Shown here: in pieces, positions 1,309 through 41,984 of the stretch
How the letters are laid out: every line of letters begins with the position of its first letter
Position numbering within the stretch: position 1 is the stretch's first letter
Source of the DNA: Sanghuangporus weigelae
Taxonomy: Eukaryota; Basidiomycota; Agaricomycetes; Hymenochaetales; Hymenochaetaceae
Assembly (NCBI GenBank): GCA_033182465.1
Contig: CP137319.1
Coordinates: 3,224,001 to 3,288,000, forward strand
Reading direction: 5' to 3'
Length of the DNA stretch: 64,000 bases
Made by a program: the position numbers and the translations under genes
The notes under the pieces: generated by a model
Told to the model about the DNA's origin: nothing
Databases searched by the model: none
The model's input: the letters and a program-made list of their open reading frames with translations, nothing else

Positions 1309-1397
1309 CAAACTTATTTTTTCTTTGTCAGAATAATAAAAAGAATTTTAAATTTCTTCCTATCAAAGACATAAAATTTCGGCAATAACTAAACTTA

Positions 1398-3489
1398 CAG
1401 CTAATTGCAAAATTGTTGGCAATTTGGAAAATCACGTGTATTTTTGATGCAAAGTGCATCCTGGATGAGCAAAAAAAAACAAAATAGTGAATATCTCAGT
1501 CAATACAGCACATAAAAATCTGATATAATCATGTAAAAAAACCTGCTCGAAAATGCGCTCCAGTACATATAAAAATGTCTGGGTTTTGTTGAGTATGTAC
1601 TTCGCTACTAAAAAGATAGCATCATAATGCTAAATCCTTGTCATGCCCTCCGTTCAGTGTAAAAATCATAGCTTGCCCAACATCATCCGGAAAAATCTGA
1701 TTCAAGTTTGATAAATCAGGCCAGCCCAGTGGGCACCTGTACGCAACTCCTCGAGGCTCCCTGACATGATTGTGGTAGTGAAACTGGGTGGTTTGTTGTC
1801 ACTCCTGCTCACAGAACTCTCCCCTACTTCATTGCATCTGTCATAACTCACGCATTTGGACACCAAAAAATCTGATTGTTTCTGCTAAAAAGACAGCAGC
1901 ATAGGCGCTTTCAGCCAAGACAGTAGCTGAGCTGACTTAGGCTTAGGTGTGGCTACATTACTTGTACTATCTACCAATCAGACTTGAAACCACCCCGGTG
2001 ACCATCCTCTGCTGAAATGTCACCCAAAATCATATCTGGGTGAGGGCGAACAAGGTCAGCTCGGCCATCATGCACTCCTGCTGCAACCAAACTGAGCATG
2101 CCCGCCAGGGCCGCAGAAACATCTCTCAGAGAAACATGAGTGTACGCACACGACGGTAGTCTTTTGTACGCAGCATCTCCCCGCACAGCAGCTCTCATCA
2201 CTTGTCCACAGTTCCCTCCTCACCCTCACCAATCTCTCATCACCCACAGGCATGAGGGAACCCCCAGTTGTTGGGGATGGACCATCATGAGAGACGAGGC
2301 ACCACGGCAAAGAGATAGGAGGCAGCAATGCATTTGAGGACTCACGTGTCGAGTCGCCACTTGATCTCGAGCCATCACCATCTTCACAGCCACCATCTCT
2401 ACAGCTTATGTTGAGCATTCATTCATGCAACCCCGGCGACACGGCAGAAGGCTGTCTAACGATTTACGGGAATGCATCATCACTATGAACAAGAAACTCA
2501 GCGCCTCTCAGATTGCAGCCTTGATCGACATACCCAAGACAACAGTTTTCCAGATAATACGAGAGTTCAAGCGCAACGGGACTGTTGCTGCGCATGAACT
2601 TGGTTTTTGTGGAAGGCCTCGAGTGCTTGATTATATCCACACCGAGGTATGCACATGTTGAAACCTGTCCTGGTAGCTGTTGGTTCACACCACGTAGTTC
2701 CTCTGCGGGTCACTAAGCAATCTCAATGACCGTTACATCGACGAGTTGAGGCTACTGCTCCAGGAAAGATGTGAGAAGGAGGTCTCGGATGCGACTATAC
2801 GCAGGTCCTTGCTGCGCGCTGGTTTCACACTTAAGAAGGTGGCTGTCTCTGTCGCTTTGCTTCCCCACGCAGTCCACGCGAACTGAAATCGTCGTTGTCT
2901 AGTTATCGAAAAGGGCTCTCGAGCGGAATGAGACTCTGCGTGCACAGTACGTCGCACATATCGCCTCTCAGTACACAGCGGAACAGCTGGTGTTTGTCGA
3001 TGAGAGTGCTTGCGATCGGCGGGCTTTTCTTCGCAACACTGCTTGGGCCCTTGAGGGTTGCCGTGCGTGTCGCAAGCAGTTTTTCAATAGGGGGAAACGG
3101 TGATTCTGCCTCTTGTGGCGCATTGCAAGCTTCTGATTCACTCCATTAGCTTCTCCGTCTTGCCAGCTATCAGCCTCGACAGGACAATCGACTGCACTAT
3201 CGTACAGGGCGCATTCAATACCAAATTGTTTGCGGAATTCATCGCCGGCCTGTTGGACAAAATGCATCCCTTCCCCGGCACCCAATCAGTCATCGTGATG
3301 GACAACTGCCTGATACACAAGGCTCCCGAGATCCGGGAGCTCATCGAATCTCGGTCTGTCTCACTAGCAATGCAAGTCGCAGCTTGTACTGACCCCTTTG
3401 CTTAGGGGTGTCAGGCTTGAATTTCTTCCTCCTTACTCACCAGACTACAATCCTATTGAACTTGTATTCTCCGTAATCAAGTCCAGGCT
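1398..3489. repeat. Left inverted arm of the composite element
   Basis: Inverted counterpart of 16966-19056. The outer 280 bp carry roughly eight differences, almost all C/T or G/A. The next 1.6 kb is nearly identical: translated frames agree except for one Leu/Pro change near 3309. Homology stops at about 3489, inside the last transposase exon. Positions 1398-2424 contain no gene that I can support; they are the subterminal and promoter-side part of the transposon. Confidence 0.85.
2425..3489 (+). pseudogene. Tc1/mariner transposase, left copy, 3' truncated
   Basis: Same gene as 16836-18030, in the left arm. Exons read as 2425-2646, 2698-2838, 2903-3099, 3150-3353 and 3406 onward. The N-terminal helix-turn-helix region, VFVDESACDRRAF (first Asp), VIVMDNCLIHK (second Asp) and PDYNPIEL (Glu) are present. 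Shortly after the Glu the sequence departs from the right copy and the frame closes within a few codons, so about 50 C-terminal residues are lost. The right copy has Pro where this one has Leu in MDNCLIHK. Probably inactive. Confidence 0.8.
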
Positions 3490-3740
3490 TTGGAGAATCT
3501 GACGAGTTTATTTTATTTCTTCTTGCAGGCAGGGAACCGTGCCTAGTTCCATAAAGTACTCAATATTCGTCATCGTCTTTGTCATGAGAACATACCGCTT
3601 TGCCCGAACGACTAATGAAGATGCTGGCCGAAAGCTGATTTTGATGAAGTCGACACTAAGCGTGTTTGGAATCACTTTTGGCCTTAAATGCTGGTGTGTT
3701 GACCATCATAGTAGTATGGCAAACTGACAATTTGATAGCC

Positions 3741-4070
3741 ATTGCATTTGATGTACAACTGGATAATGGACGCAACCCATCGGTTCTATCTTACATGTGC
3801 CTCATGAGAAATCTCGAACGTAAAATTAAGGTCCAGTACGCTCTCAATGAAAGACGATCAATACTCGTTGTTCTAGATTACGAGGGGGGCGCTTTGCGCA
3901 AAATGAACATCAAATTGCGACACGACATAATGATGTGCGTCAGAACGCCACCTCGCCGCAGTTTAAGAAGATTACTACAAGTGTTCTAGCATGGTACCTC
4001 GACTCCAACGAAGGCATTGGCAAACTCGTTAAAGGATATAGCGCTGATGAACACGATCGATGAACGGTAG
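3741..4070 (+). pseudogene. Decayed second copy of gene X (middle domain)
   Basis: The reading frame resembles the third and fourth exon region of gene X at 14538-16691. PSVLSYMCLMRNLER aligns with SSVVSYMRFMENLER, RRSILVVLDYEGGALRKMN with TRSTLVVLVDDGRALHKMN, and, in another frame, QFKKITTSVLAWYLDSNEG with WFKKIGTKIQPRYLESDVD. At least one frameshift and one gap separate the blocks. By eye about half of the residues match, far less than the neighbouring transposase copies. It lies just inside the left arm, as gene X lies just inside the right arm. Positions 3490-3740 and 4071-4259 hold nothing recognisable. Confidence 0.6.
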
Positions 4071-4264
4071 GTGCGATTGTTTACCTTGCCCCTTTCCTTG
4101 CATTGTGCGCTTATTTGTTTTGATTAGAAGTGTTCCATATGCTCAGGAAACGCTTTCACCAGTGTGGCCCAAGCAGCTTCAATGCAATGCTTGCATTTCA
4201 TATGTGTAACTGTAACTATAAATAGAGATTGTTGCCGGCAGAGCCAGAAATAATCAAAGAAGCT

Positions 4265-7214
4265 TGTTAGGACCAGTGTTTTTAGACGAGGTGGTCAGTC
4301 TAAGCGTACCGGAACAAGTCCCTGCTTATTCCTTCTGATGATAATTGATTGGAGACGGAACGAAGGTTATAGATGTACTACTTTAGAAGCGAGCGATAGG
4401 CTCAAGCTTGACCTCAGTAGTGGAACAGGGTTTCAATCAAAGGGTACAGTTTTCGATTGAGAGTACAAAATAATTTTGCTGAGGGACAATGCCCCGCTCA
4501 GCTAGCCCTTAAATAACCTATTTACTAAATAGTACCGACTACCTATTACTACCGACTACAGCCTTGCTATTGGTCTAGACAATATGTTTTCTCTGACACC
4601 AGTACTCTACTCTGGTGCCAACACCGATACTTTCCTCTAGTGTTGAATCACAATACTTCTACCATATTAGGAGGGTTTGTTTGAGTCCTACTACCCCGAT
4701 GCTTCGAGAAGCTTCTTCCGTGCTTCCTCCGATCTGCAATCGTTATCACATGTTAATTTCTCCTTATCTTTACCCCACGATCCTTCTCCGTTCCCAGACG
4801 GGTTCCCATGATAGTTGCCAAGCTATCGCTTCTCTGGCGCTCCGTTCCCGGGCCGAGCTTCTGCCGCTTAATCCTCGATCATGGGGGAGATAGTGATATC
4901 AGGGTTAGAGATCGGCAGAGCTTGCCGATCTTCTCCCGGCGAATGAGTGTACTCCGCTACACTCCTTCTGTGCCTCGCCGCGACTTCGATGTCCGATAGT
5001 TGTAGTCCTGGGCCCGTGGTTAGCCGTAGCCTCTGTCCAAAGTGCTCACGGCTATTCCACTCATCAACTGTAATTACCCCTGGCTCTGACGCTCGCCAAG
5101 CCTGCATTAAGCGTTCTATCGCTTCTTCCGTAAGATGTTCAATGTCCGAAGGTGGCCGCTTGTAAACTGGCCAATCTACTTCCACTGCCGTGTGACTGCA
5201 CAAGGTCTGGTGCCGATGCTGATTGATCCAAGCTCGCACGCCGACCTTTAATGCATAGACATCCCTATCGCTAAGCCATATGGATACCTCATGGTCGTAT
5301 GCACTCATTCCGTGGTTCGGTAATGGTTGGTCTTCTGTTCGTTCCGAGGGTCCGGGCTTATGCCGAATCTTGACATCGGCTGCTTCCCTTGACACTAACC
5401 GTTCCGTGAAGTTCTTCATGAGCCATTCCGCAAGTACCCAGCTTCGTTGGTAGGCCAAGTAACAATTGGCGCACACCAAGCTCTCATGTACAAATCTTCT
5501 AGTTGCACCACGCCGATAATGTCTTCGTTGCAGGAGTTCCGTATACCTTGCGACATTCCTTTCTTCCATCGCCGCCAGACTGCGTTCCGGCGGTGGAGTA
5601 TGTCCAATGTGCATATTAGTTAGTCCTAATTGCAAATCATTAGAGTCCTCCGTGTCTTCTCCAGACGATCCGTGGTTTGCTACTCTTGAGTCGCCACCAC
5701 TGTTCTGCCGTAGTAGCCTTTCGAAATAGTCTTGATTTGGCATCGCAACTCGGTGTGTAAAATTTAGCCCACGCCGCATTAGATAACCACAATTTTCGTA
5801 ACAAAGCTCTGATTCTCGCTTATGAAGCAGCAGTCGCTTTTGGTGAGTTTTTTTGAAGAGTATGCTTCCTTTTGATGAAGCGTCCATAAGTATCTATCTG
5901 GTCTCACGGCATGACTTTGCTTTCCCATGCCCATGAGATCGTGTCAATTGATTGATATCGAGATCGATATCTGTTCCCCTCTAACCACGACCAACATGTC
6001 ATTTGAGGGCACTACCGAAAACCAGAGTTTATGTGGGTCCTCATCCTCCATTCTCCTTGACTTGTTCTGAGATTGTCTTAGATATCCAAGTTCCTCGGGA
6101 TGGAGGTAAGAATTTTCTCTTATGTAGAGTTCATTCTCATTGTACTTATAATCGGGTATAAGGCACCCTCTCGGAATTGCGGGTGCCCATGTCTACATGG
6201 AATATGTCTGTGTCCAGAGCTCTGAATGAGCAGGCCATCGGCAGCTCTGATTTCTACCGGGGGTACTTGGCTGCCATTCGGCAGGTGGCACCCTGCATCC
6301 GCTGTCGTGCTGAGAGTGGACTTGTGAATAAATTCTACAGTGCTCTCACAGAGTCAACCGGTCTATTTATCTAGACGGGTAGTCTTCCCTGTTGTTCGTT
6401 TAGCTAGGGGCAACTAATTCTTAGACTGCATATGATATTGTTGGCCGTTGGGTAAGTAATGGAAGTTGATATGGATGATTTTGGGGTGACAACGTATGAT
6501 AGGTGTGATTTGCTGATAAGAGTCCTGAACTCAAACTTAATACGTACTAGGTTCTAGAAGCAGCACAGTAGCGGTTCTAGCAACCTCGCTTATCATTATC
6601 GGTCCTAGTAGCAACGCTCTTCGCAGTACTAGCAACTGCACTTATTCTTAACAGGTACTAACAGCAAACACTAAAGTAGTGTCAGCTACCTGTGCAATGA
6701 TGTATCTGAGTGATATGCTGATGTCAAATAAACCACAACACTAATATTCAGCAAGGGTGGGTACAAACAAGCACCTGACTTGAGTGCACCGCACTAAACA
6801 ATGACAAACACTTCTGTGTGCTTGCAAATCTAGGGTACTGAACAGTAATGAAGTAACAGTAATTAACACCTTAGCTTTATTACTGACTGCCTAATTTGTA
6901 CAGCAGTAACAAAAACTAACACTTTACTTAGACTTATGACACAAAGTAACAAACTGGAGAGAGATGGTGGTGGTTAAAGGTCAAGTTGCTCTCTCTCTTG
7001 GCGTGCTCGCTCGCCCGCCTTATATAGGCTGAGCTTACTAAGCATTATTAAGCATTACAAAGCAAGGCCAAGAAAATAAACTAAAAATAGGACTCAAATG
7101 CACTTGCTTATATAAGAAAAATTAGGTTCAACCTTCCTAATATAGAATCTGATTTCCGTCTCGGCTTCTTGTCCTGCGAGTCCAAAGCTCATATCCCTTT
7201 ATGGTATCCTAACA
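4265..7214. mobile_element. LTR-type insertion with TGTTAGGA/TCCTAACA ends
   Basis: A 2,950-bp insertion bounded by TGTTAGGA and TCCTAACA and flanked by 5-bp direct repeats AAGCT at 4260-4264 and 7215-7219. Such ends and a 5-bp duplication fit Copia-like LTR elements; the solo LTR at 35115-35537 has very similar ends. I see no long direct repeats inside and no pol domain, so it may be a non-autonomous member or a remnant. It carries one ORF on the minus strand (4868-5887). Positions 4265-4867 and 5888-7214 contain no supportable gene. Confidence 0.55.
4868..5887 (-). CDS. Uncharacterised 339-residue protein inside an LTR-like insertion
   Basis: A single-exon ORF of 339 codons, the only long one in the 2.95-kb insertion. 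I do not recognise the family. Visible traits are a lysine- and arginine-rich N terminus, two cysteine pairs (CYENC near residue 30 and CANC near residue 138) that could bind zinc, and a stretch around WINQHRHQTLCSHTAVEVDW in the second half. There is no signal peptide and no membrane segment. It has no gag, protease or polymerase motif. It could be cargo of the insertion, a host gene fragment or a fungus-specific orphan. The ORF is intact from an ATG to a TAA-type end, and 339 codons without a stop is unlikely by chance in this composition. Confidence 0.5.
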   Translation of the reverse strand: MDASSKGSILFKKTHQKRLLLHKRESELCYENCGYLMRRGLNFTHRVAMPNQDYFERLLRQNSGGDSRVANHGSSGEDTEDSNDLQLGLTNMHIGHTPPPERSLAAMEERNVARYTELLQRRHYRRGATRRFVHESLVCANCYLAYQRSWVLAEWLMKNFTERLVSREAADVKIRHKPGPSERTEDQPLPNHGMSAYDHEVSIWLSDRDVYALKVGVRAWINQHRHQTLCSHTAVEVDWPVYKRPPSDIEHLTEEAIERLMQAWRASEPGVITVDEWNSREHFGQRLRLTTGPGLQLSDIEVAARHRRSVAEYTHSPGEDRQALPISNPDITISPMIED

Positions 7215-7492
7215 AAGCTTGGACTGCCTCCTGATTAGGTCATGACACATGCCTAAGCATTGACTCATTGTAACGTAGTCGTTGATAGGGAGTCTGAATT
7301 GTCTTGCACAAATCTAGGCTCATACCCTCAATTCTGGTGCGCATTATCGGTCTGCTTCAGGTCAATAAGCGATTTGAATACCTCTGAACGGGGACCTTAA
7401 AGAAGCTCGTCGGACCCTGTATAGCTTAGACCAATTCAGTATAAATTGTATATGAGTGACGGCGTAGTCTCCTTAATCCATATCTTCTCAAA

Positions 7493-10400
7493 ATGCCTTC
7501 TCGCAACCCTTTTGCACGCCTTTCACACATGTGGTGCCACATGAAGAAGGTGTTGAGGTTAATTCGTAGGCCTCGTCAGATCACCATTGAACAGCTACAG
7601 TAAGTGTCAGCATTGATATCCAAGTTGATTTATCCTGATGCAGTATTAGAATCATAATTGAGACGACTATTACGACTAGGGTAGAGCCGCTTTTCTTGGT
7701 GATTTCGCATTGCTATCACCCTACGCTTATCTGGTATGGGCTTCTGTCATTATGCTCATGATTTTCTTTTCTGATCGCATTGGTAGAGCACTTACGAATG
7801 AGCTGAATCTGAGTTTCAAGGATTTATATGTCGCATCCCATAGAGCTATTGCTTGATAGTAATGACTGATGCTATGCTATTCCTGCTTGTTTATGTCCAG
7901 GCAATTTCATAGCCTGACACCGTGAGTTGTTTCAGGCGCATGTGGAGCTGGCTGTCCGCACCGATACGCTGATTACCCTGCATAACCAAGCCACAAATGA
8001 CGATCTGCAATGGAGGATGGCAGAAGTGAGTTTTAGCACTTTCTTTCAAGGATTTATAATTGCTTATAATCTCTTAGGAACAATCGTCGACTCATGCTAT
8101 CGGAGGAAGGAGTAGTTTGGATATCGGTCTGAAGCTCCTCACCGAAGCGGGATGTATTATGGTGGAAATTGGTAGCCAGGACGGTGTCCTTCAGGTCGGA
8201 AACGAAACGAGGCATCAAGCTTTTATGACCTGCATCGACAAGTATAAAAAACCCATCCCGAATGTCTTTCTCTCCAATGTGTGCAGTTTGATGATCGGCT
8301 TCAAAGAACTAGTGGTGAAGGAGGAGGAGGATCCGAATGCGGTCGATGTAATGATGGCGTTTCTGGCGGCAGTTCAATGGCGAATCCCGCTCTTAAAGGA
8401 CACAATCGAAACCATGTCAAGTAGCCTACCGTCACGGTGTAGCGCACTGGCCCCTCCTGTGCCAGTACACTCATACTATGGCTCCCCCTATACTGCAGAT
8501 ACCATATCCCAGCGCCGCCGACACCTCAGAGTGTGAGGGCATACTCCTATTGCACTCGGGACATCATTTGAGCACGTATCCATTGATTCCAGCACACGTA
8601 CTGTACTGCGGCGCCCTCCTATGACCCAAATCGATCCGCCGATGGCTCCCCGACACTCAGACAGGTCCGCCGACAGCTCCTACCCAGCACCAGGCACTAT
8701 AGGACACATCCCTCAGTGACTACGTGCCACCGATCTTATGATTTACCATACATACAGCCGTGCGGCGACTCTGGATGCCTCCGAGTCGGCCCCCCTTGGC
8801 GCCGATCAATGCGGCGGACACTCAGACATCCTCAGGTACCCTCGCCGACGCCTCCTACAGCTTATCAAGCAGTCCCCCATTGTCTAGGGAGCTATATATT
8901 GTCATATGTGCTTACATGCCTCATTACGACATATCTGCCACCAGTCCGGCAGTCCCCCACAGCACTGCCGCTCCGGCCACTCATATTAGTCACTAGGGAT
9001 CGCCCACACTCTGTATTGAGTGCCGCCGATGCATCGGACACCTCAGGGACATCGGCTGATGCGCCCTTTGTCTCATATACGCGATATCAGCCTCCGATCA
9101 TCGGTTCCGAGGTTTCCCGACTTCCCCCTGACGCGGCGGCCCCCATTAGACCATGTATGGAAGGTAGGCATGTGGTACATCGGCGTGCCAAGCCACCGAC
9201 TCGCGCCGCCAAGCCCAACTCCGCCGGCGCCCGTGTTATTGCAGATACTCAATATTTCATGTGATTGGATGCCCCCCTCACGTTGCCGCTCTCAGATTTC
9301 ACCTGGGCGCTCCGGCAGCGGCCCTTGGCGACCCAGATGACTCAGGAGATGTTGTCAGACAGTAGGATGTGTCGGCGACAGCAGTAGAGTATATATAGAG
9401 CTTATACTAGCTTGTAGACGAAAGGATAAAAAGCCTAGCAGGGATTCCAAGCCTAGCGAGGGTTCCAAGAGCATGTACCAGACCGAGCGCCAGAGTTCGA
9501 GATATCCCTCACTCTGAGTCTTCCCTCATGTACTGAGCCTCCCCCTTGACTATATACTATCCTTGACATCTCCTCTTGTTTGACTCCACATTCTACTTGC
9601 CTTCGCCGCCTCCGGTACGCCTCTGCCGCTCTGACGTTCAGTGATCCGGCGCCCCTCTATTCGACGTCGGCGACCCTTCGGCGACCCAGGCTTCTCATCA
9701 GACTCCCCTTCTGCGTCCTTTCCAGCCTTTCACTCCAGTTTATCCCATATATTGATCTTATACGGTCTTTTCCTTTCATCTATCGCGTTTACGCTACTGC
9801 GGCGGATTCCTGCGGCCTCCCCCTCAGTCCGGCACCCCTCTATTCGACGTCGGCGGCCATCCGACGACCCAGGCATCCTATCAGACGACCCAGCGGCGCC
9901 TTCTCCAGCCACTCACTCCATTTTATCCTTTATATTCATCTTATACACTTCATACCTTCCTGTGGCCGAGTTTATACCACGTCGGCAGCCTCTTGTGATC
10001 CCCCCTTTTGAGCGGCGGCCCTATTATCCTATTCCCTTTATCCAGCGGCATCCTTAGACCCATCCATTACGTCTCCGACGGTTCCTGGCACCTGCCGGGT
10101 AGTAGGTCTTTGAGAGTCTGATAGCGTCGGCATCCCATTTTTGGAGGTCCCTTCATACATTCAGCACCCTTAGTAGGACGGACATCTGTAGCACCTTCAG
10201 ATACGACACCGCCGACCGACAACGGCGGAGAAATCAGGTTGAAACTCTTGAGTTCTGTGTACGGGCTTTCCCTCCGGAAGAAACTTATGCGCAGGCAGCG
10301 GTTGACTTTTTTGTCAACAAATGCAACCCCATTCGGCAGCTTGGCAACAACGCTGCTCACCCGATAGACATTGGGATGTCATTCGCCTCGATCATTTTTT

Positions 10401-10693
10401 TGGTCGAGCAGGTTCGGATAAGCGAGAAGAATAAAACAGCCCTACGTCAAATCGCCTTCGAAATGGAAACTATTCACGATTCCTACCAAGATATAGAGCT
10501 CGGGTATGTCAGGCGGGAAGAAGAGGAGGAGCCGAAGAAGGAGAAGAAAGGGAAAGGGAAGGGGAAGAAAGGGAAGGAGAAGGGCGATACTATTGCTGTT
10601 TTACTCGGTGATACCCAAAAACGCACACCCAGAGTCAAGCCGTGGGCTAAGGAAATGTTCGTGCCAATGAGGACGGTTCTCCGAGAACCTTGA
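7493..10693 (+). CDS. Gene Y: unknown helical protein, interrupted by a solo LTR
   Basis: Possible exons are 7493-7599 (MPSRNPFARLS start, GTAAGT donor), 7936-8025, 8078-8437 and 10226-10693. The first junction does not keep phase, so one small exon is probably missed. A solo LTR with its 4-bp target repeat sits between 8437 and 10226, and the frame resumes in the same phase beyond it. Residues FLVEQVRISEKNKTALRQIA form an amphipathic helix resembling the helical bundles at the N terminus of fungal immune-type proteins. A charged Glu/Lys run (EEEEEPKKEKKGKGKGKKGK) follows near the C terminus. Function is unknown. With the LTR in place the transcript is probably disrupted. It lies in the cargo region of the composite element, upstream of gene Z on the same strand. 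Confidence 0.5.
8438..10221 (+). mobile_element. Solo LTR, NCGN-target group, copy 1
   Basis: A 1,784-bp fossil LTR starting TGTAGCGC and ending CCGACCGACA, flanked by 4-bp repeats ACGG (8434-8437 and 10222-10225). A TATA-like GTATATATAG lies near 9388-9397, as expected for an LTR promoter. No internal coding region is attached. It is highly similar to the inverted copy at 12601-14366 (a few per cent different by eye), so both are young. The ORFs inside it are GC-rich artefacts. Confidence 0.75.
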
Positions 10694-11149
10694 TCAGAGG
10701 AGTATGATTCAACGCCAATCGAATCGAGCGCAGGAGGGAGTGGCGAAGTTGTGGTAGAGGGAAAAGGAAAAGGAAAAGGAAAAGGAAAAGGGAAAGGGAA
10801 AGAGAAGGCGAGACCGAGTAAGAGGTGTTGAGTGTAAATGAAGGGAGGAAAGAGAAGAAGAGGAGATGATTGCTCCCACTGTGTACTTTAGTCCAAGCTC
10901 TGTGTCCTTTGCTCCTCGAAAGATTCAAAGAAAGAAAGCACGCACCACTTGGCCACACTAGATTAGAGATCCGGTCAGACGACCCTAGATGTTAGTCAGC
11001 CAAGCCTGGGTAAGATTCGGCTTGTCGTCCATATATAAGAAAGCCAGAGATGAATGATCCCCAGTACCCACTTTGTCTCCTCCCACCATCATTGTTATCT
11101 CCCTCCCCTACACCGATCTTCCCCACTCAAACTCTGTTTGAGTAGTGTC
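10694..11149. other. Intergenic region Y-Z with purine-rich tract
   Basis: No gene is seen. Positions 10750-10806 form a purine-rich microsatellite (AAAAGG units) that continues the Lys/Glu-coding composition of the end of gene Y. A TATATAAG at 11032-11039 lies about 110 bp before the start chosen for gene Z and may be its core promoter. Confidence 0.5.
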
Positions 11150-12467
11150 ATGTACTCCTCGCGAGCTACCCTTAGGGGCTGTGAGTATCAGCCGCTATTG
11201 TTCAAAGCACTGAAAATAACTGACCGCCACAACCTAGCCCTGAGTTCCAGAAATGTTCCCATTCTGGAGAAAGTCAGCCCAGGTACGTTTCCTTGGTTGA
11301 ATGCTGTAGCATGCACACTTTCGAACTCTTTTGATCAGTATCCAAGACGGTAACTTCTGCGAAGTCCGTATCTCCAGATACAGAAGCAGTGAATGCTGCG
11401 AAGACTGCGAAGGAGAAGGAGGATGCGTTTGTAGACGACATGAACCAACACTTTACGGCTATGCACGAGCAAATTGGACTCGGAATTAAGAGCACCCAAG
11501 AAAAATTTGCCATTATACATAGGGAATTGTACGAACGGAGAGAGCATTTGAATAAAAACGAGATCGCTTTCAATATCGTAGGAATCTTTCTCCTTTCTTT
11601 TTTTCGGCATAATGGGAAGTTTGATTTGTCATGTTTTAATAGGCAACCCGGACCCAAGCAAATGAGACAAATCCAGAAGTTCTCCAGAGAGCGTTGACCA
11701 TTGTGTACGACGCAGTAGCCGCTTACGTGGATAGTCTACAATCCGCGGACCAGCAGATTCCTGGGGGCGCCACCTGGAGACTGGAGGACGCAAAGACTTC
11801 CGACGGACGTATTAATGCCGAGATTTTCACGCAGAAGCTCTGGGAATTCCTCGAACTCCAGCGCAATTCCATTGTGGGAACAGAATTGGCATTTTTAGCG
11901 GAGCGTTTCTGCCAAAAGCTGGTTGAGTGGACTAAATTTACAGAAGATCAGCGCAAAAGTACCAAGGAGATGGATATAGATAAGGCAGAGGATCGATTTC
12001 GTCGCCTAAAGCGGGCGTCTGAATGCTTCCCGAAGGATGATGTCTCGATTAAGATCCTATCCTTTGTGGTTTTCACGCCGAAAGCCTCTGGTACTGAGAA
12101 TAATTATAAAGCGGAGATGAAAGATCGATATGATTCCCATCGCTACCGAAGTGTTGCGTACAGTTCCAAGGCGAGGTGCGACTATGAGCAAGGCAGCGAA
12201 CTGCTTGAAGAGAAGAAGAAGCGTATTTGGTATCATGGTCATTTATCAGTGCTCGCACTTCTGCTGGAGTGGGTCAGGCAGGCCGAATCCGACGACCCGA
12301 ATCGTGGTTTTCCTGTTTTCACTCAAGCGGACACATATGGTGATTCGGATGATGATTCGGATGGTGATTCGGATGGTGATTCGTCCGGGACAGATGACAT
12401 GGATACGGGCGACGAAAGTGAATCCTCAGTGTCGAACGGTTGTCCGCCAGTGGTGAGCCCTGCATAA
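11150..12467 (+). CDS. Gene Z: unknown coiled-coil protein with acidic tail
   Basis: Three exons, 11150-11282, 11339-11577 and 11643-12467, join in phase to 398 codons with GT-AG introns of 56 and 65 nt. I do not recognise the family. After a short N-terminal part comes a long amphipathic stretch (NAAKTAKEKEDAFVDDMNQH through ELYERREHLNKNE) likely to form a coiled coil. A mixed helical region follows, then an Asp/Ser-rich tail (DSDDDSDGDSDGDSSG) coded by GATTCGGATG-type repeats. There is no signal peptide or membrane segment. The start at 11150 (MYSSRATLRG) is the first ATG that keeps phase; one upstream at 11054 is possible. It lies between the two inverted solo LTRs and within the composite element. 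Confidence 0.65.
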
Positions 12468-12600
12468 ATTCGTAAGGTATTTGGGTCTCTGCACCATTTT
12501 TTATGGTTGTAACTAACATGATCTGAGTTTGCTCCTTGCATTTGGGCCTTAAGTTAGTGGAATTTTTCGAAATTGCCTTATTCTCATTTCGTTATGGCGG

Positions 12601-14366
12601 TGTCGGTCGGCGGTGTCGTATCTGAAGGTGCTACAGATGTCCGTCCTACTAAGGGTGCTGAATGTATGAAGGAACCTCCAAAAATGGGATGCTGACGCTA
12701 TCAGACTCTCAAAGACCTACTACCCAGCAGGTGCCAGGAACTGTCGGAGACGTAATGGATGGGTCTAAGGATGCCGCTGGATAAAGGGAATAGGATAACA
12801 GGGCCGCCGCTCAAAAGGGGGGATCACAAGAGGCTGCCGACGTGGTATAAACTCGGCCACAGGAAGGTATGAAGTGTATAAGATGAATATAAAGGATAAA
12901 ATGGAGTGAGTGGCTGGAGAAGGCGCCGCTGGGTCGTCTGATAGGATGCCTGGGTCGTCGGATGGCCGCCGACGTCGAATAGAGGGGTGCCGGACTGAGG
13001 GGGAGGCCGCAGGAATCCGCCGCAGTAGCGTAAACGCGATAGATGAAAGGAAAAGACCGTATAAGATCAATATATGGGATAAACTGGAGTGAAAGGCTGG
13101 AAAGGACGCAGAAGGGGAGTCTGATGAGAAGCCTGGGTCGCCGAAGGGTCGCCGACGTCGAATAGAGGGGCGCCGGATCACTGAACGTCAGAGCGGCAGA
13201 GGCGTACCGGAGGCGGCGAAGGCAAGTAGAATGTGGAGTCAAACAAGAGGAGATGTCAAGGATAGTATATAGTCAAGGGGGAGGCTCAGTACATGAGGGA
13301 AGACTCAGAGTGAGGGATATCTCGAACTCTGGCACTCGGTCTGGTACATGCTCTTGGAATCCTTGCTAGGCTTGGAATCCTTTTGTCTACAAGCTAGTAT
13401 AAGCTCTATATATACTCTACTGCTGTCGCCGACACATCCTACTGTCTGACAACATCTCCTGAGTCATCTGGGTCGCCAAGGGCCGCTGCCGGAGCGCCCA
13501 GGTGAAATCTGAGAGCGGCAACGTGAGGGGGGCATCCAATCACATGAAATATTGAGTATCTGCAATAACACGGGCGCCGGTGGAGTTGGGCTTGGTGGCG
13601 CGAGTCGGTGGCTTGGCACGCCGATGTACCACATGCCTACCTTCCATACATGGTCTAATGGGGGCCGCCGCGTCGGGGGGAAGTCGGGAAACATCGGAAC
13701 CGATGATTGGAGGCTGATATCGCGTATATGAGACAAAGGGCGCATCAGCCGATGTCCCTGAGGTGTCCGATGCATCGGCGGCACTCAATACAGAGTGTGG
13801 GCGATCCCTAGTGACTAATATGAGTGGCCGGAACGGCAGTGCTGTGGGGGACTGCCGGACCGGTGGCAGATACATCGTAATGAGGCATGTAAGCACATAT
13901 GACAATATATAGCTCCCTAGACAATGGGGGACTGCTTGATAAGCTGTAGGAGGCGTCGGCGAGGGTACCTGAGGATGTCTGAGTGTCCGCCGCATCGATC
14001 GGCGCCATGGGGGGCCGACTCGGAGGCGTCCAGAGTCGCCGCAAGGCTGTACGTATGATAAATCATAAGATCGGCGGCATGTAGTCACTGGGGGATGTGT
14101 CCTATAGTGCCTGGTGCTGGGTAGGAGCTGTCGGCGGACCTGTCTGAGTGTCGGGGAGCCATCGGCGGATCGATTTGGGTCATAGGAGGGCGCCGCAGTA
14201 CAGTACGTGTACTGGAATCAGTGGAAACGTGCTCAAATGGTGTCTCAAGTGCAGTAGGAGTATGCCCTCACACTCTGAGGTGTCAGCGGTGCTGGGATAT
14301 GGTATCTGCAGTATAGGGGGAGCCATAGTATGAGTATACTGGCACAGGAGGGGCCAGTGCGCTACA
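12601..14366 (-). mobile_element. Solo LTR, NCGN-target group, copy 2 (inverted)
   Basis: A 1,766-bp fossil LTR in minus orientation, the same family as 8438-10221. On the plus strand it runs from TGTCGGTCGG to GTGCGCTACA and is flanked by GCGG at 12597-12600 and 14367-14370. Its target repeat differs from that of copy 1, so the two are independent insertions and not the terminal repeats of one element. No coding region is attached. Confidence 0.75.
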
Positions 14367-14537
14367 GCGGTTCGTTTGATATGCATACCAGTTTTTCGAT
14401 AGGAGTTTCTGGGAACATTATTGATTTCGGATCGTCTCCAGAAATTTGTTCCCACTTCCTTTCGTACCCTTATTTATTGTGCGCATGAATATATGTAATG
14501 TAACACATCATGTTTATTATTGAATGTTATTGTCTGT

Positions 14538-16691
14538 TCAGCCAATGTTCTCCCGGGCATAGAAAAGCACGGCGGATGCAAGCCCACGCGTGATGTGAAC
14601 ACCCGACTGTGACGCCATTGAAATCAATTCGTCGGTTGTCAACCTGAGTAGAATCGGGTTAATGCGCGGATATCCATTACATTTCAGAACATCGGCCAGC
14701 ACTGAGTAGTTCATGTTGTTGCGCCCTCGTTCCATGTGATCATCGCACATCTTCAACCAAACCTCTACCAAAGGATAATCACGAATTTTATTCTTCACGG
14801 ACGGGGAGCCTCGAGTTCTGTTGTGGTGACCTTTGCGATGATATCCGTTACGACGCGATGCAGAGTGCCTGTTCCGATATCTGTGATGCCTGTAGTCATC
14901 CTCGGATAACGAACTGCAATCGTGATAATCCTTTTCTGCGGAGCTTTCGGAGTCCGCCCGCCCCAATGATGATGAGGATCGAAAGCGACATGTATGACCT
15001 CTCTTTCTGATGGATCGGCTCCTGCCACAATGACGCTTCCTGCCACGCGATGATCCACGGTACCTTCTATTGTCCCTCGGCCTGTCTCGTGCAGGCCGGG
15101 AGGCGGGCGATGGCGATGCATGGCGAGTCCTTCCAGCACTGGAATTTTCTACACCTGGTTTGATCTGCGGATCCCCATCCGCTTGTGCTTGACCAGCGCC
15201 AGCTTGGTTTGTAAGCCCCTGCTGCATGCCTATGGCGGTTGAACCTAAGGTGGTCTGCACAGTTCACTTTAATTTGTGGTAGTCGAACAAGTTCAGCTGC
15301 CTGGGAACCTCCGAAGCTGTCACGCCCGGAGCTTTACTTAGCTACAAAAGCTCAGAAGCCTCCAGAATCACATAGATGATAGTAAGACACGTACTAGGAG
15401 CCTTGCATGATCAAAATAATTCTTCATTGTATAATATATATGAGTGCCATTGGCACGAACATAACAAACTTCCTCCGGATGTGTGCTACACCGTAGGTTC
15501 TGCTTGATCTCCTTGATATGAGGTGCGAGCATTGCATTCAGGTCATCTTTCGTTACTTCCGCCGCACTGGTTGGTTTGGTCACATTCTGAAGTACGCTTC
15601 CTGAGCATTTAGAACCCTTCTAAATGGAACAGAATTCGCGCATCAACACATGAAAGAGAGAAAGGCAAACGATCACATTTACCCGTTCATCGTTCATGTT
15701 CATAAGCACAATTTTGCCTGCACTATTGACCTTGCGCTTTTTCTTCAGCTCCTCAAGATACTTCTTGAACCCTTGCACAAGCTCATCAAGATCTACATCG
15801 GATTCGAGATACCGTGGTTGAATCTTCGTTCCAATCTTCTTAAACCATGGACCGGTGTAGCCTAGTGTAACCAAGGTGGGATAGCACTGAAGAATACTTG
15901 CCACGTTCTGATGCACATCGATTATGCTGTGTTGAGGTTCGACGTTCATTTTGTGCAAAGCCCGCCCATCGTCAACCAGAACGACAAGTGTTGATCGTGT
16001 TTCTTTAGGAGCTTGCTGCTCCTCTTTTTCACGTTCGAGATTTTCCATGAAACGCATGTAAGATACAACCGAAGAGTCGCATCTATACTCTTGGTCCGAA
16101 TTGTCAGCGTAGTCTATTAAATCATTAGAGACTGACAAACTCCTATAATGGTCTACGCACTGGCTGCAAGCAACGGATTATCAAAGTCCCAAGGATCGCT
16201 AGTACCGACTCTGTTGGTATCTGACTCTTGACCCAGATCGTCATTAGCCATTCGGGCAATATCAAGTTGTGATGGTTCTTCATCATAGGGCTCTTCATAT
16301 TGATACGTCAGGTCCTCGTCAGCAGCTCTCCGGCCCCTTGCTTTTGTCGTGGTGGGCTCCGCTTCCATGTTATTCTGTTACAAAGTATGAGTGCAATACC
16401 AGAAGACAAGACTATCAGTACTACCATCTCTTCAACACCATTCTTGTTGACAGCAGGCCGCTCTGCCTTCCTTGGCCAGCCTCGTTTCCATGGTCCTTCA
16501 GCAATGACATCTGCATTTTGAGAGTTCGAATGAGGGCCATTTGCTCGCTGGGGCTCCAGGGCCGTTGCTGCTTTTTTGGGAGAGGAGTTTCTTGTAACGG
16601 CGGATGCCTGCTTCGTCCCGGCAGTCTTACTAGCCGCAGTCTTGCGAACTGCAGTCTTGCGAACTGTGAGTTTTCTAGGAGTGGGACTCAT
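14538..16691 (-). CDS. Gene X: unknown basic/SR-like protein
   Basis: Five exons, 16691-16425, 16374-16161, 16113-15683, 15619-15395 and 15254-14538, join in phase to 618 codons (617 residues). Family unknown. The N terminus is basic (RKTAVRKTAASKTAGTK), as in nuclear or DNA-binding tails. The middle part holds SSVVSYMRFMENLER and TRSTLVVLVDDGRALHKMN, conserved in the decayed copy near 3741. The last exon has an Arg/Ser-rich stretch (SRGRKRHCGRSRSIRKRG) followed by about 80 residues (DYPLVEVWLKMCDDHMERGR to AVLFYARENIG) that resemble a small helical SAM-like domain; this comparison is from memory and weak. It lies just inside the right transposase arm, on the same strand as the transposase. 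Introns 1-3 are 50-63 nt and intron 4 is 140 nt. Confidence 0.65.
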
Positions 16692-16835
16692 GATGGTAAG
16701 AGATGAAAAAAAAAAAAAGTGATGTGGCAACGAAGAAGGTAGCTGCTTATAAACGTATTCCCAGCTCGCTTACTAGCCCTCCGGAGATCGATGATCCAAA
16801 GTCCGCAAACATACACTATCTTCAGATTCAACGGC

Positions 16836-18030
16836 CTATACAAGCACATCATAGCGACAGTGGCGAAAGAAGGAATAACTATCCAAAGAATTAATGGAAT
16901 ACACCTGCCTGCAGAGTTGCTCAACAACTGACGTGTCATCCTGAGGACCGGGACCCTGCTGTTTTAACCTGAACTTGATTACGGAGAATGCAAGTTCAAT
17001 AGGATTGTAGTCTGGTGAGTAAGGAGGAAGAAATTCAAGCCTGACACCCCTAAGCAAAGGGGTCAGTACAAGCTGCGACTTGCATTGCTAGTGAGACAGA
17101 CCGAGATTCGATGAGCTCCCGGATCTCGGGAGCCTTGTGTATCGGGCAGTTGTCCATCACGATGACTGATTGGGTGCCGGGGAAGGGATGCATTTTGTCC
17201 AACAGGCCGGCGATGAATTCCGCAAACAATTTGGTATTGAATGCGCCCTGTACGATAGTGCAGTCGATTGTCCTGTCGAGGCTGATAGCTGGCAAGACGG
17301 AGAAGCTAATGGAGTGAATCAGAAGCTTGCAATGCGCCACAAGAGGCAGAATCACCGTTTCCCCCTATTGAAAAACTGCTTGCGACACGCACGGCAACCC
17401 TCAAGGGCCCAAGCAGTGTTGCGAAGAAAAGCCCGCCGATCGCAAGCACTCTCATCGACAAACACCAGCTGTTCCGCTGTGTACTGAGAGGCGATATGTG
17501 CGACGTACTGTGCACGCAGAGTCTCATTCCGCTCGAGAGCCCTTTTCGATAACTAGACAACGACGATTTCAGTTCGCGTGGACTGCGTGGGGAAGCAAAG
17601 CGACAGAGACAGCCACCTTCTTAAGTGTGAAACCAGCGCGCAGCAAGGACCTGCGTATAGTCGCATCCGAGACCTCCTTCTCACATCTTTCCTGGAGCAG
17701 TAGCCTCAACTCGTCGATGTAACGGTCATTGAGATTGCTTAGTGACCCGCAGAGGAACTACGTGGTGTGAACCAACAGCTACCAGGACAGGTTTCAACAT
17801 GTGCATACCTCGGTGTGGATATAATCAAGCACTCGAGGCCTTCCACAAAAACCAAGTTCATGCGCAGCAACAGTCCCGTTGCGCTTGAACTCTCGTATTA
17901 TCTGGAAAACTGTTGTCTTGGGTATGTCGATCAAGGCTGCAATCTGAGAGGCGCTGAGTTTCTTGTTCATAGTGATGATGCATTCCCGTAAATCGTTAGA
18001 CAGCCTTCTGCCGTGTCGCCGGGGTTGCAT
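16836..18030 (-). CDS. Tc1/mariner DD34E transposase, complete copy
   Basis: Five exons, 18030-17809, 17757-17617, 17552-17356, 17305-17102 and 17049-16836, join to 326 codons (325 residues), the usual size for Tc1-type cut-and-paste transposases. N-terminal helix-turn-helix: SASQIAALIDIPKTTVFQII. Catalytic core (DDE_3/IS630-Tc1 fold): Asp in VFVDESACDRRAF, Asp in VIVMDNCPIHK, Glu in [12 protein letters not shown], with 34 residues between the second Asp and the Glu. The C terminus SYSFFRHCRYDV is typical of the family. No stop or frame break is seen after removing GT-AG introns of 51-64 nt. The reaction is excision and reinsertion at TA dinucleotides. It is the likely source of mobility for the 1398-19056 block and for MITEs with the same terminus. 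Confidence 0.85.
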
Positions 18031-19056
18031 GAATGAATGCTCAACATAAGCTGTAGAGATGGTGGCTGTGAAGATGGTGATGGCTCGAGATCAAGTGGCG
18101 ACTCGACACGTGAGTCCTCAAATGCATTGCTGCCTCCTATCTCTTTGCCGTGGTGCCTCGTCTCTCATGATGGTCCATCCCCAACAACTGGGGGTTCCCT
18201 CATGCCTGTGGGTGATGAGAGATTGGTGAGGGTGAGGAGGGAACTGTGGACAAGTGATGAGAGCTGCTGTGCGGGGAGATGCTGCGTACAAAAGACTACC
18301 GTCGTGTGCGTACACTCATGTTTCTCTGAGAGATGTTTCTGCGGCCCTGGCGGGCATGCTCAGTTTGGTTGCAGCAGGAGTGCATGATGGCCGAGCTGAC
18401 CTTGTTCGCCCTCACCCAGATATGATTTTGGGTGACATTTCAGCAGAGGATGGTCACCGGGGTGGTTTCAAGTCTGATTGGTAGATAGTACAAGTAATGT
18501 AGCCACACCTAAGCCTAAGTCAGCTCAGCTACTGTCTTGGCTGAAAGCGCCTATGCTGCTGTCTTTTTAGCAGAAACAATCAGATTTTTTGGTGTCCAAA
18601 TGCGTGAGTTATGACAGATGCAATGAAGTAGGGGAGAGTTCTGTGAGCAGGAGTGACAACAAACCACCCAGTTTCACTACCACAATCATGTCAGGGAGCC
18701 TCGAGGAGTTGCGTACAGGTGCCCACTGGGCTGGCCTGATTTATCAAACTTGAATCAGATTTTTCCGGATGATGTTGGGCAAGCTATGATTTTTACACTG
18801 AACGGAGGGCATGACAAGGGTTTAGCATTATGATGCTATCTTTTTAGTAGCGAAGTACATACTCAACAAAACCCAGACATTTTTATATGTACTGGAGTGC
18901 ATTTTCGAGCAGGTTTTTTACATGGTTATATCAGATTTTTATGTGCTGTATTGACTGGGATATTCGCTATTTTGTTTTTTTTTGCTCATCCAGGATGCAC
19001 TTTGCATCAAAAATACATGTGATTTTCCAAATTGCCAACAATTTTGCAATTAGCTG
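16966..19056. repeat. Right inverted arm of the composite element
   Basis: Inverted counterpart of 1398-3489, ending in the terminus GCAATTAGCTG and then TA. It contains the transposase exons up to 18030. Positions 18031-19056 are the non-coding subterminal part, in which I see no gene. The few reading frames there also occur in the left arm in reverse and are not coding. Confidence 0.85.
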
Positions 19057-19058
19057 TA

Positions 19059-20729
19059 ACCATTTTTGCTTTTCTAAGACTTCAAGTTTCTTTATGTGTT
19101 CCTCACACGACATTATTTGAAATCTCTTTGTTTTCCTAATCCGAATCTAAATCCTTATTGTTATTTCAAGTTCTATCAAGGAACAAACATGAAATATTTC
19201 ACGTAATTAAATGCAGTATTTAATTTCAAATCTTGTTTGTCAGCTAATTATAAATTTCTTTTAGATTATAATAACTCTTTGCCCGGTGTGTATAAAGCCA
19301 ACAACTCAAGTCACATCAATTTGTAACTGTATCTCCCCCACCACAACACCTCAGATTGGCCTGTAAAGTGTACCAGTGGATAGCTATAGGCCATGAGAAT
19401 AGAACTTGCATTTTTTCAGAATTGTTTCTTGAGGTTCAAAAATTTGCTCGGGCAAAATTGAAACAAATATATTTAAATAAATAAATAATGATTTTTATTT
19501 ATTAGTAATACTATCAAGACTGACCAACCGGGTAAGTTACATAATACATTTGCATCGATCATTACCTTATCGAGAAGATGTCATGTATGTGTTACTAAGA
19601 AAACATCAAGAAGACAACAGAAAAGGCAACTAAACACATTCATACATACTCAGTGTAAGCCAAGTACATAAGGTCAAAGAGGACATAACAGGATTGAGAG
19701 ACCTCAATGGAACTGATGGGATGCAATGTCAACTCCTTCTAGATATTTTAAAATAAGATTGGCCTCTTAGCTTTCTTCAATTTTGCATTGCTAGGAGGCA
19801 TGTTTGGTGTCTCTCAAGTGCTGGATGGCTAGGGAAGTAAGTCAAAGCTCGCCTGATCAGCCCCTAATTTTTATTCAAAATTTTCTTTATTTTTTTTCCC
19901 AAAAAAATTGAAACATTTTGATGGCCCATCAAAAACCCCAGATTATTGCATAACTTTGTTACTTGTATTACAGAAACTCGCCTCCACAGAGGTGTCGACA
20001 CGTGACGCTTCGAGCTGTAGATCGGGACTTCGTCGATTTGGATTCCAACATGATGTTGTTTGTGTAACCGTGCATTGCTCTGTCTAGCTGGTTGAGGAAG
20101 CTGTATCGGACCAACCCTGCGTTCAGCACTACAACGAACTTCGGTCGCATCAAGACGCATTACTATTGGTCTCATCCTCACGTACGTTTCTCTCCGTCCT
20201 TCTCTCCCATGTCCTTGAGCTATTCATCTGGAACTCCTTTGTTTTCTGCTTCTGCTTGCGGACTACACACGTAGATAAACCCGACGAGGATCGTACCAGT
20301 AGGACCGATACAGATATCGAGCCCTTACATGAGTAACGTGTGAGATGCGAGGTATAAGGTTGAGCACGCAGGAATCGGGGAGAAAAAAGAAACGATTTAC
20401 AGAACTCTAGTGTACCATGTAGTATCTGTGTATCTGGGAGGATTCTCGGGTCCGCGAACTGAAAGAAGTCGTAAAAATGCATGTCAATTTGGTGTGTTCA
20501 AGACGCTCGGAGTGTTGACAAAATTATTTGACGGTGTTCTGGATACATCTGCCCTATTTTTACCCCCTGATGAGTATTCTAGGCGAACCTATCAGCTGTC
20601 GTCCATAACCTCTCTCGTTCCTTATACATGAAAAGCGTTAAATGCGAGTTCTTGAACATCATAGGATGTATCGATGAACGAGTTCTGCGGACCTGAAGAT
20701 TCAACATAGATCAGAGAAAAAATTAGTAG
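19059..20729. other. AT-rich intergenic region
   Basis: No supportable gene. Positions 19430-19520 are very AT-rich with ATAAATAA runs. A short minus-strand frame at 19968-20153 (PKFVVVLNAGLVRYSFLNQL) has a protein-like look but no start, splice partner or family that I recognise; it may be a gene fragment. Confidence 0.4.
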
Positions 20730-24839: not shown

Positions 24840-24845
24840 TACTTA

Positions 24846-25934
24846 CAGCTAGTTGCAAAATTGTTGGGAATCACGTGATTTCACCACTTTTCTCGCCATG
24901 AGAGCCTCAAAACACAGATAAAATCATATCTCACCCAAATCTCAATGGTTTCACATCATCTAAGTTTCTAAATTCATCTTTTCGAAAGGGCTTTCGCTTA
25001 AAAAAAAAACTATAGAGAAAACAGAGTGAAAAATGACCCCAAAATGGCGAAAGTATTGGTTTTTGCCTCTTCCTTGCATGTGCAATTTTTTCTGTGATCC
25101 CTGCTAGTCCAGCACCTCCTCAAAGCTATCCAGAATGATAATATGATTATAAAATGAATTTACAGACTGAGTTTGAGTTGAATTGTGTACCAGAATATGC
25201 TGCTTTGAGGCATGCCTGAATCACTCAAAACTCATCATTTCCCCCTAGCCTCCCAGACTCCAGGAAAAATTCTTACAGGCCAGATTCATGCATGTAAATT
25301 CATTTTGGATATAATAGACTAGGTTTGTGTACTAGCTAAGGCCTCAGCATCCACTGGTGAACTGGGCTGAACAAGTGATTTTGGTTGTATGCATCATTTT
25401 AGACAGCATCTTCCCAGCTCACCAGTGGATGCTGAGGACCTAGCTAGCACATAAACCTAGTCTATTATATCTAAAATGAATTTACATGCATGAATCTGGC
25501 CTGTAAGAATTTTTCCTGGAGTCTGGGAGGCTAGGGGGAAATGATGAGTTTTGAGTGATTCAGGCATGCCTCAAAGCAGCATATTCTGGTACACAATTCA
25601 ACTCAAACTCAGTCTGTAAATTCATTTTATAATCATATTATCATTCTGGATAGCTTTGGGGAGGTGCTGGACCAGCAGGGATCACAGAAAAAATTGCACA
25701 TGCAAGGAAGAGGCAAAAACCAATACTTTCGCCATTTTGGGGTCATTTTTCACTCTGTTTTCTCTATAGTTTTTTTTTTTAAGCGAAAGCCCTTTCGAAA
25801 AGATGAATTTAGAAACTTAGATGATGTGAAACCATTGAGATTTGGGTGAGATATGATTTTATCTGTGTTTTGAGGCTCTCATGGCGAGAAAAGTGGTGAA
25901 ATCACGTGATTCCCAACAATTTTGCAACTAGCTG
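24846..25934. mobile_element. Palindromic MITE sharing the Tc1 terminus, copy 2
   Basis: A 1,089-bp palindrome: two inverted repeats of about 505 bp around an 80-bp spacer. It starts CAGCTAGTTGCAAAATTGTT after TA (24844-24845) and ends GCAACTAGCTG before TA. The termini match those of the 1398-19056 element at 19 of 20 positions, so that transposase may mobilise it. It would fold into a long hairpin and could be a source of double-stranded RNA if transcribed. Confidence 0.8.
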
Positions 25935-26490
25935 TAAAGTACATGTATGATTTTTTTCAGCCCAGAAAACACTTTGGATGAATTTACAGAGAGGAGGGAA
26001 AAATGAAGGGTTCTCGAGCTAAAAACCACTACTCCAAACACCTTTTTGTGTAATCAAATTGTTACCCGGAACTTGCCAGTAATCTCTTACATCATCTAAT
26101 TTTCTTATTTCCCACCACTTTTGTAAACTTTTGTCAAGTGTCAGCCCCATATAAATATGAACTCTTGCCCAATTTCCCTTCTAAAACATGTAATAGATTC
26201 CTGAGATGCCATTTTATTCACCTGTGTGCCCAAGACTCTCAAAACAGTGTCATTCAGATCAAAGGATAATTTTGAAAGTGTACTAGGGAGAATAGTTATT
26301 GAAATTTCCTCAATGTTTGAATTTTCATGGCTCTTCTACTGCTCCGATTGCTACCAAAATTCATAAGTATATCGAGTTTACATGTGAAAGTTTTCATAAG
26401 TTTTTTCAACAGTAGGGATGTAAAAGTGAGGGAGGAAATAGTAGGTGTTTGGAGTAATGATGGTATTTGGAGTAGTGGTGAATTACTGTA

Positions 26491-41023: not shown

Positions 41024-41984
41024 ATGACAGAAACCACAGGCTTCATCGACTTCGTGTACAACGGCGAGAAGTTCCAGACCTGGTTCAAAGTGGTCGGATC
41101 CCTGAGTTCCGGCTTTCGTCCGTTGGTTCTCCTACATGGCGGGCCCGCTGTACCGAGTCCATACCTCAGCCCTCACATAGAGCTTACGGAGTCATATGGC
41201 ATCCCACTCATCTTCTATGACCAAATCGGAGGAGGGAAGTCCACGCATCTTCGTCAAAAGCCGTCGGAGTTCTGGACCATCGATTTGTTTATGGACGAGC
41301 TTGACAACGTTCTCAGGTATTTCGGAATTGCGGATGACTTCGATCTTTACGGACACTCATGGGGTGGTATGCTGGCTGCAGAATACGTCGCAACTCGGAG
41401 GCCTCGAGGATTGCACTATCTTGTTATAGCCAGCGCCCCCGCTTCGATAGCGCTTTGGGAGTCTTGCATGAATAAGCGGCTTGACCGCTTCCCTAAAGAC
41501 CTAGCAGAAGTGATTAGAAGGAACGAGAGAGAAGGGACGACAGATTCCAAAGAGTATCAGGACGCGATACAAATTTTCTACAGCAAGCACATCTGCCAGC
41601 TGGACCCGTGGCCCAAGGACTTGCTGGATGCATTTAGCGCCATGGAGGAAGACCCGACTGTCTATCGTGCGATGTTAGCGATAACGAATTTGCGATTTAC
41701 TATTATTCTGGCTCACCTTAAGCTATAGGTTTGGAACTTCGGAACTCAAAGTCACAGGGAACCTGCGTACCTGGTCCGTCATCAAGAAGTTACGAGACAT
41801 CAGATGCGAGACCCTAATCATGAACGGCGCCGACGATGAGGCGCAAGACGAGTGCATGCAGCCGTTTTTTGACGAGATCCCGAAGGTTAAATGGGTACGG
41901 TTTGAGAAGAGTAGCCACATGCCATTTTACGAAGAGAAAGGAAGGTATTTAGAGATCCTGGGATATTTTCTGAAGCATAACTAG
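41024..41984 (+). CDS. Proline-iminopeptidase-like alpha/beta hydrolase (S33), copy 1
   Basis: Two exons, 41024-41673 and 41729-41984, give 302 codons (301 residues), normal for proline iminopeptidase/L-amino-acid amidase enzymes, which remove N-terminal Pro or cleave amides. Seen: oxyanion-hole motif LLHGGPAVPSPYL, nucleophile elbow YGHSWGGML with the catalytic Ser, the acid residue in MNGADDEAQDE, and the catalytic His in KSSHMPFYEEK. The start MTETTGFIDFVYNGEKFQTW matches the paralogues at 53558 and 52244. There is no signal peptide, so probably cytosolic. It is the only one of three copies in the window without a lesion. The copies differ in orientation and flank a block with coronin, GMC and M28 genes. 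Confidence 0.88.

Follow-up and report, generated by a model that had tools for sequence, protein, structure and literature searches.

A probable multigene variant of Tc1/mariner with long, transposase-bearing terminal inverted repeats in the fungus Sanghuangporus weigelae

In a 64,000-nucleotide stretch of the Sanghuangporus weigelae genome (the window; C2:3224001-3288000 of a 33.9-Mb genome in 13 contigs, here C1 to C13; bare coordinates are window positions), we find a transposable element that is very probably a new variant of Tc1/mariner (DD34E), a single large element with several genes, accessory genes of its own, and giant terminal inverted repeats (TIRs, or arms). We observe directly its structure, its target, its insertion as one unit, its copy number and its association with particular genes. 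DUF6533, a family expanded in mushroom-forming fungi, has 57 matches in this genome and none in 14 control genomes, as expected of an agaricomycete host. The features are collected in Table 1.

Structure of the element

The two arms are inverted copies of each other: over 2,089 aligned bases they differ at 9, all of them transitions. A repeat finder delimits the same arms. Both arms carry exons of a transposase gene, T. With up to 4 mismatches allowed, a 20-base terminus is located at 1398 and, inverted, at 19056, and the same scan finds no inner termini between these positions. A TA flanks each outer end. A first-pass annotation of this DNA had described these features (the identical inverted terminus, the outer TA, the 2.1-kb inverted arms with transposase copies, and the absence of inner termini), and all of them stand. 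The same annotation gave a length of 17.7 kb, which is right as to the outer termini that bound the element, but 6.7 kb of it consists of four later insertions. These resemble solo long terminal repeats (LTRs), start with TG, end with CA, and have target duplications of 4-5 bases (one with a mismatch); because of them the window copy spans 17.7 kb instead of ~10.9 kb. In the four siblings compared, the sequence runs through all four insertion sites without a break.

Copies in the genome

The window arm matches at least 41 pieces of the same genome. Grouped by locus, these give 14 stretches in which both orientations occur, 9-40 kb apart, and three places with a single orientation (C7, C10 and C11). 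The count of pieces is a lower bound, obtained by scoring 40 of 76 candidates, and some pieces are parts of one interrupted arm. So many pieces and inverted pairings exclude chance and a lone assembly inversion as the origin of the window arms. Seven stretches and one further copy, 8 sibling elements altogether, were aligned to the window. The segments they have in common (1395-4264, 5804-6302, 7913-8437, 10211-12605 and 14367-19059) are mostly 93-98% identical to the window, lower in older copies, and the inner arm boundary is identical in all 8. A 6,773-base internal core is at least 96% covered in 8 of 10 elements, the others being E13b (86%) and E1b (33%). From the core shared among copies, we set the length of the element at ~10.9 kb. 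The sibling at C6:1309k has 10,910 bp between a miniature inverted-repeat transposable element (MITE) within its left terminus and the right end, and the copy at C13:1434250-1444299 has 10,050 bp. All six elements whose two outer ends were available have TA at both. The first-pass annotation had proposed to look for further blocks that share these arms and have homologues of the internal genes; such blocks are present within the same genome.

One arm match, C11:1385205-1386333, reaches 83% only and represents an older or related subfamily. Two siblings carry a MITE copy (C6:1308260 and C2:2375006), inserted at the first TA within the left terminus or directly beside it.

Insertion as a unit

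The window element inserted as one unit. As a probe for the empty site, we joined the 71 bases to its left (including the TA) to the 112 bases to its right. This 183-base join has end-to-end matches in the same genome, at 100% in six places and at 90% or more in 21 places. The window element therefore sits in a copy of another repeat, and its pre-insertion site exists elsewhere. The sibling at C1:3791091-3803506 splits a ~1.09-kb palindromic MITE, and when its flanks are joined, intact copies of that MITE align right through the junction (26 alignments, some from overlapping loci, several with a different base at the TA). The earlier claim that the block moves as a unit is borne out in the sense of whole-unit insertion, the empty site (flanks plus one TA) being found on repeat copies.

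The repeat into which the window element inserted forms inverted pairs 2-3 kb apart (C1:776416/778559, C2:1032182/1034385, C2:928200/931074 and C9:1840437/1842644), so that it may itself be an inverted-arm element. Part of the gene for the largest subunit of RNA polymerase II lies at 607-1011, about 390 bases beyond the left end (Pfam matches to Rpb1 domain 4, E=1.6e-27, and domain 5, E=8.4e-19), with degenerate 11-base repeats after it. This fragment is a captured or retro-copied piece of a host gene, and is possibly part of the repeat that harbours the element.

Transposase and class assignment

The right copy of T matches the Pfam helix-turn-helix (HTH) model HTH_SB with E=2.6e-7, short of the model's own cut-off, and DDE_3 with E=4.8e-9, above cut-off. 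Its 3' exon matches DDE_3 with E=4.4e-8, also above cut-off, and its 3' end extends into the unique region; the left copy ends at the arm boundary, shortly past the third catalytic residue (E). The second D and the E are separated by 34 residues, as counted by eye across a predicted exon junction in three families. The TA duplication, the transposase with HTH and DDE_3, and the DD34E spacing uphold the Tc1/mariner type proposed by the first-pass annotation. The plan typical of Tc1/mariner, small, with a single gene and short TIRs, is not what we find here: the elements are ~10.9-11.1 kb long and have several genes and TIRs of 2.1-3.3 kb. Starships have a tyrosine-recombinase captain gene at one end, whereas the window element has a DDE_3 transposase at both ends and a TA duplication. 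In Pfam scans of a part of the open reading frames (ORFs), there was no match at cut-off to recombinase families, nor to TET/JBP. The part of the CNEST report drawn on here describes a 7.2-kb CMC-group element that likewise makes TA duplications (PMC12810828), so TA alone is not diagnostic.

Accessory genes

The letters X, Y and Z follow our own gene reading; the first-pass annotation gave no coordinates for its genes, and its letters may differ. It described three genes with clean introns; in our reading, X is broken by two of the insertions, and Y and Z by none. The X frame ends at 10693 in the window and continues beyond in 7 of 9 copies. Y has no Pfam match at cut-off. In relatives of Z, we see by eye GRPRK-type AT-hook motifs in the basic N-terminus, less canonical in the window Z, followed by a middle domain (A1), a Cys/His motif and a helical C-terminal domain (A2) that looks weakly SAM-like.

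Z is found beside T throughout the genome. Of the 22 Z matches with at most 41% identity, 19 are within 5 kb of T, versus 1.7% of the genome. All 52 Z matches are within 15 kb of T, and for the C-terminal part of Z, 33 of 34 are within 5 kb. The linkage of Z to diverged T copies across the genome leads us to reject X, Y and Z as random cargo. We read these genes as standing partners; X and Y are nearly confined to the window family.

Related families

We distinguish four other families, B to E. The family B element at C10:99652-110774 is ~11.1 kb long; its arms span 3,325 bases, are 99.3% identical and both carry T, and the element also has Z and a coiled-coil-like gene, W. Its ends read TTA-CTGCC...GGCAG-TAA, where TA fits as the target. 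W is present in three places, all of family B, and in the family B copy at C2:2.90M the DDE exon is open. In family D (C2:1.70M), inverted arms of ~945 bases at 95% both contain pieces of T, accompanied by Z and a 556-codon coiled-coil-like ORF, while the C13 copy of the family has no inverted arms in 6 kb. T and Z are convergent in families C and E. The T-Z pair of family C is flanked by two genes that appear coiled-coil-like by eye, and the inverted repeats around family E are those of an LTR-like insertion.

Homogenisation of the arms

The arm statistics cover 10 elements with both arms, E6a with 968 bases of its left arm and E1b with 2,234 of the 6,773 core bases; they leave out the copies at C12:745k, C12:1072k, C12:1373k, C13:481k, C7:846k and C10:76k, and make no use of the single arms of C7 and C12:1380k. 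The left and right arms of one element differ by 0.3-5.1%. They are sisters in 9 of the 10 elements (E1c is the exception), and have private substitutions in common in 9 of the 10. In 8 elements, the left-right difference is at most twice the private divergence of the internal region. Since the nearest relative of an arm is the other arm of its own element in 9 of 10 cases, arms are homogenised within elements. This homogenisation is common, yet not tied to each move. It could come about by gene conversion or by gap repair at transposition.

Alternative explanations

The first-pass annotation had called the element composite, a reading in which two independent inverted Tc1 elements mobilise the passive genes X, Y and Z between them. 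Two inverted arms with transposase and insertion as a unit agree with it. However, the arms of a composite transposon each have both of their own termini, and here no inner ones are found with up to 4 mismatches; the siblings keep the same inner boundary and the same gene set, Z recurs beside diverged transposases across the genome, and the second family, B, follows the same plan. Being already contradicted, the composite reading retains hardly any probability, and two separate elements are rejected on the missing inner termini and the inner boundary kept by the siblings. It is also improbable that the identity of the arms reflects recent amplification alone, without homogenisation. Several copies are indeed young by private divergence (0.4-0.6% internal), but amplification would group left arms with left arms, and what we see are the left-right sisters and the both-arm private substitutions described above.

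A different possibility, unlikely in our judgement, is that a long-TIR Tc1 element once captured host genes which now ride along and decay. The broken X of the window and the near restriction of X and Y to one family speak for such a capture. So do two observations that also count against a single element with accessory genes of its own: substitutions among window-family copies are close to neutral, with some stops, and therefore give no support for constraint on X and Y, and stops are found in 11 of the 22 divergent Z matches, the other 11 being stop-free (as are 32 of the 34 matches to the Z C-terminus). Several further points weigh against, or limit, the reading as a single element with its own accessory genes. 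Many of the divergent Z matches are copies of one family, so that the 19 of 22 near T are not independent. For the SAM-like C-terminus, two Z relatives match Pfam SAM_2 weakly and below cut-off (E=0.021 and 0.07), a profile of four Z sequences against the PDB has SAM domains as its first five matches (E=0.028-0.32) with unrelated chains close behind, and single-sequence fold prediction gave no useful fold match. The roles of X, Y and Z are ones that we infer. A Y-like stretch with 35% identity and an open frame of 263 codons is found at C1:3357901-3358344, with no T match within 350 kb, and could be a Y that was orphaned or domesticated. In the complete family B element, one identical frame break in the DDE exon disrupts T in both arms, which makes this copy look dead; that the break is common to both arms fits homogenised arms. 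Long arms are not universal, since over the 5.5-7.5 kb read no second transposase is seen in family C, in family E or in the C13 copy of family D. The left-right differences of E1c (2.39% versus 0.95% internal) and E13b (2.44% versus 1.09%) exceed twofold, too much divergence for arms that are reset each time the element moves.

We nonetheless prefer a single multigene element. In such an element, T would act on the outer termini, and Z, which is probably DNA-binding and self-associating, could bridge the distant ends or resist silencing. In 10 of 12 exon pieces, the majority of substitutions fall at CpG sites (for instance, 68 of 87 in one piece of Y), which fits methylation of element copies. 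Only tentatively do we extend this to a new clade, multigene transposons of the Tc1 lineage carried by mushroom-forming fungi. In this clade, transposition might need an accessory complex (the AT-hook/SAM-like Z and the coiled-coil proteins), the T-bearing multi-kilobase arms might be re-copied from one end of the element to the other around transposition, and arm divergence might date insertions in the way that LTR divergence does.

Other features of the window

Copies of the ~1.09-kb MITE, a nearly perfect palindrome, are at 1-503 (partial), 24843-25938 and 26842-27935. In the genome, 40 loci scored of 204 candidates match at 94-96%. The terminus of this MITE differs from that of the element by one base in 20, with 28-29 terminal bases shared, and T probably moves it in trans. 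The window also has a 450-base inverted repeat at 75%, with its halves 11.2 kb apart (41233-41682 and 52893-53342), and an array of 27-base tandem repeats at 32383-32598.

Table 1. Features of the element in the window
Feature	Position	Strand	Basis
Complete element copy, ~10.9-kb core plus four nested insertions	1398..19056	none	Termini, TA, sibling-shared core, empty site
Left TA target duplication	1396..1397	none	Sequence
Right TA target duplication	19057..19058	none	Sequence
Left arm, long TIR with T copy truncated at 3' end	1398..3487	+	Inverted-repeat alignment, ORFs
Right arm, long TIR	16968..19056	-	Inverted-repeat alignment
Transposase gene T, right copy, ~5 exons (own reading), HTH and DDE_3, DD34E by counting	16836..18090	-	Pfam, ORFs
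Gene X, approximate extent, three pieces around two insertions	6162..10693	+	ORFs, copies
Gene Y, approximate extent, coiled-coil-like (by eye), acidic tail	11054..12467	+	ORFs, Pfam
Gene Z, approximate extent, several exons: basic AT-hook-like N-terminus, middle domain, Cys/His motif, RS-rich linker, SAM-like C-terminus	14538..16691	-	ORFs, profile/domain searches
Relic of second, diverged Z copy adjoining left arm	3780..3947	+	~75-78% nucleotide match to Z exon 15904-16086, crosswise window/siblings; protein match 48%
Nested solo-LTR-like insertion, TG..CA, duplication AAGCT	4265..5803	none	Sibling comparison
Nested solo-LTR-like insertion inside X, duplication CCGC/CCGT	6303..7919	none	Sibling comparison
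Nested solo-LTR-like insertion inside X, duplication ACGG	8438..10221	none	Sibling comparison
Nested solo-LTR-like insertion, inverted copy of that at 8438-10221, duplication GCGG	12601..14366	none	Repeat finder, sibling comparison

Comparison with known systems

Tc1/mariner is the textbook minimal transposon, with one gene and two short ends. If our reading is true, what accessory proteins add to a usually solitary transposase becomes testable, and the self-similar arms offer both an insertion-age clock and a case of concerted evolution within a mobile element. Published systems are compared here on passages of the cited papers. Ordinary Tc1 elements share the TA target and, in some groups, DD34E, and differ in having ~1.3 kb, one ORF and TIRs of ~30 bp (hundreds of bp in Minos) (PMC7325037). 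Two surveys give fungal Tc1-mariner elements ~2 kb and TIRs of roughly 36-100 bp, with Sclerotinia elements of 1.8-2.3 kb and TIRs of 36-70 bp, and Verticillium elements of ~2 kb with single intronless DDE_1 transposases (PMC4188875, PMC3441728). Fungal DNA transposons with TET/JBP genes, some with TA duplications, likewise have a recurrent non-transposase gene (PMC12730594); they belong to other transposase superfamilies, 'mariner' and 'Tc1' are absent from the main text of that report, and TET/JBP is without a match in our scans. In the open-licence PMC literature, with Repbase outside the search, we recognised no fungal Tc1 element with long T-bearing arms and accessory genes.

The nearest parallels appear to be the ciliate elements Tec, TBE and Sardine, by analogy only. 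TBE of Oxytricha has three ORFs, but its TIRs are ~80 bp, its accessory domains are other ones, and its target duplication is ANT (PMC4724952, PMC7325037). Sardine/Thon of Paramecium resemble the window element in their IS630-Tc1 transposase, their several ORFs (up to 4) and their long TIRs (palindromic, 425 to ~700 bp), and differ in their tyrosine recombinase and their length of ~6.7 kb (PMC3464196). Tec1 and Tec2 of Euplotes, relatives of Tc1/mariner, have a DD34E transposase, very long TIRs (~700 bp) and three ORFs, together with a site-specific recombinase (PMC7325037); unlike them, the window-type elements have TIRs of 2.1-3.3 kb that contain T, a length of ~11 kb and an AT-hook/SAM-like gene, with no recombinase match in the Pfam scans made. 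If true, an 11-kb fungal lineage with a recurrent accessory gene and 2-3 kb T-bearing arms extends the multigene, long-TIR design of ciliates to fungi.

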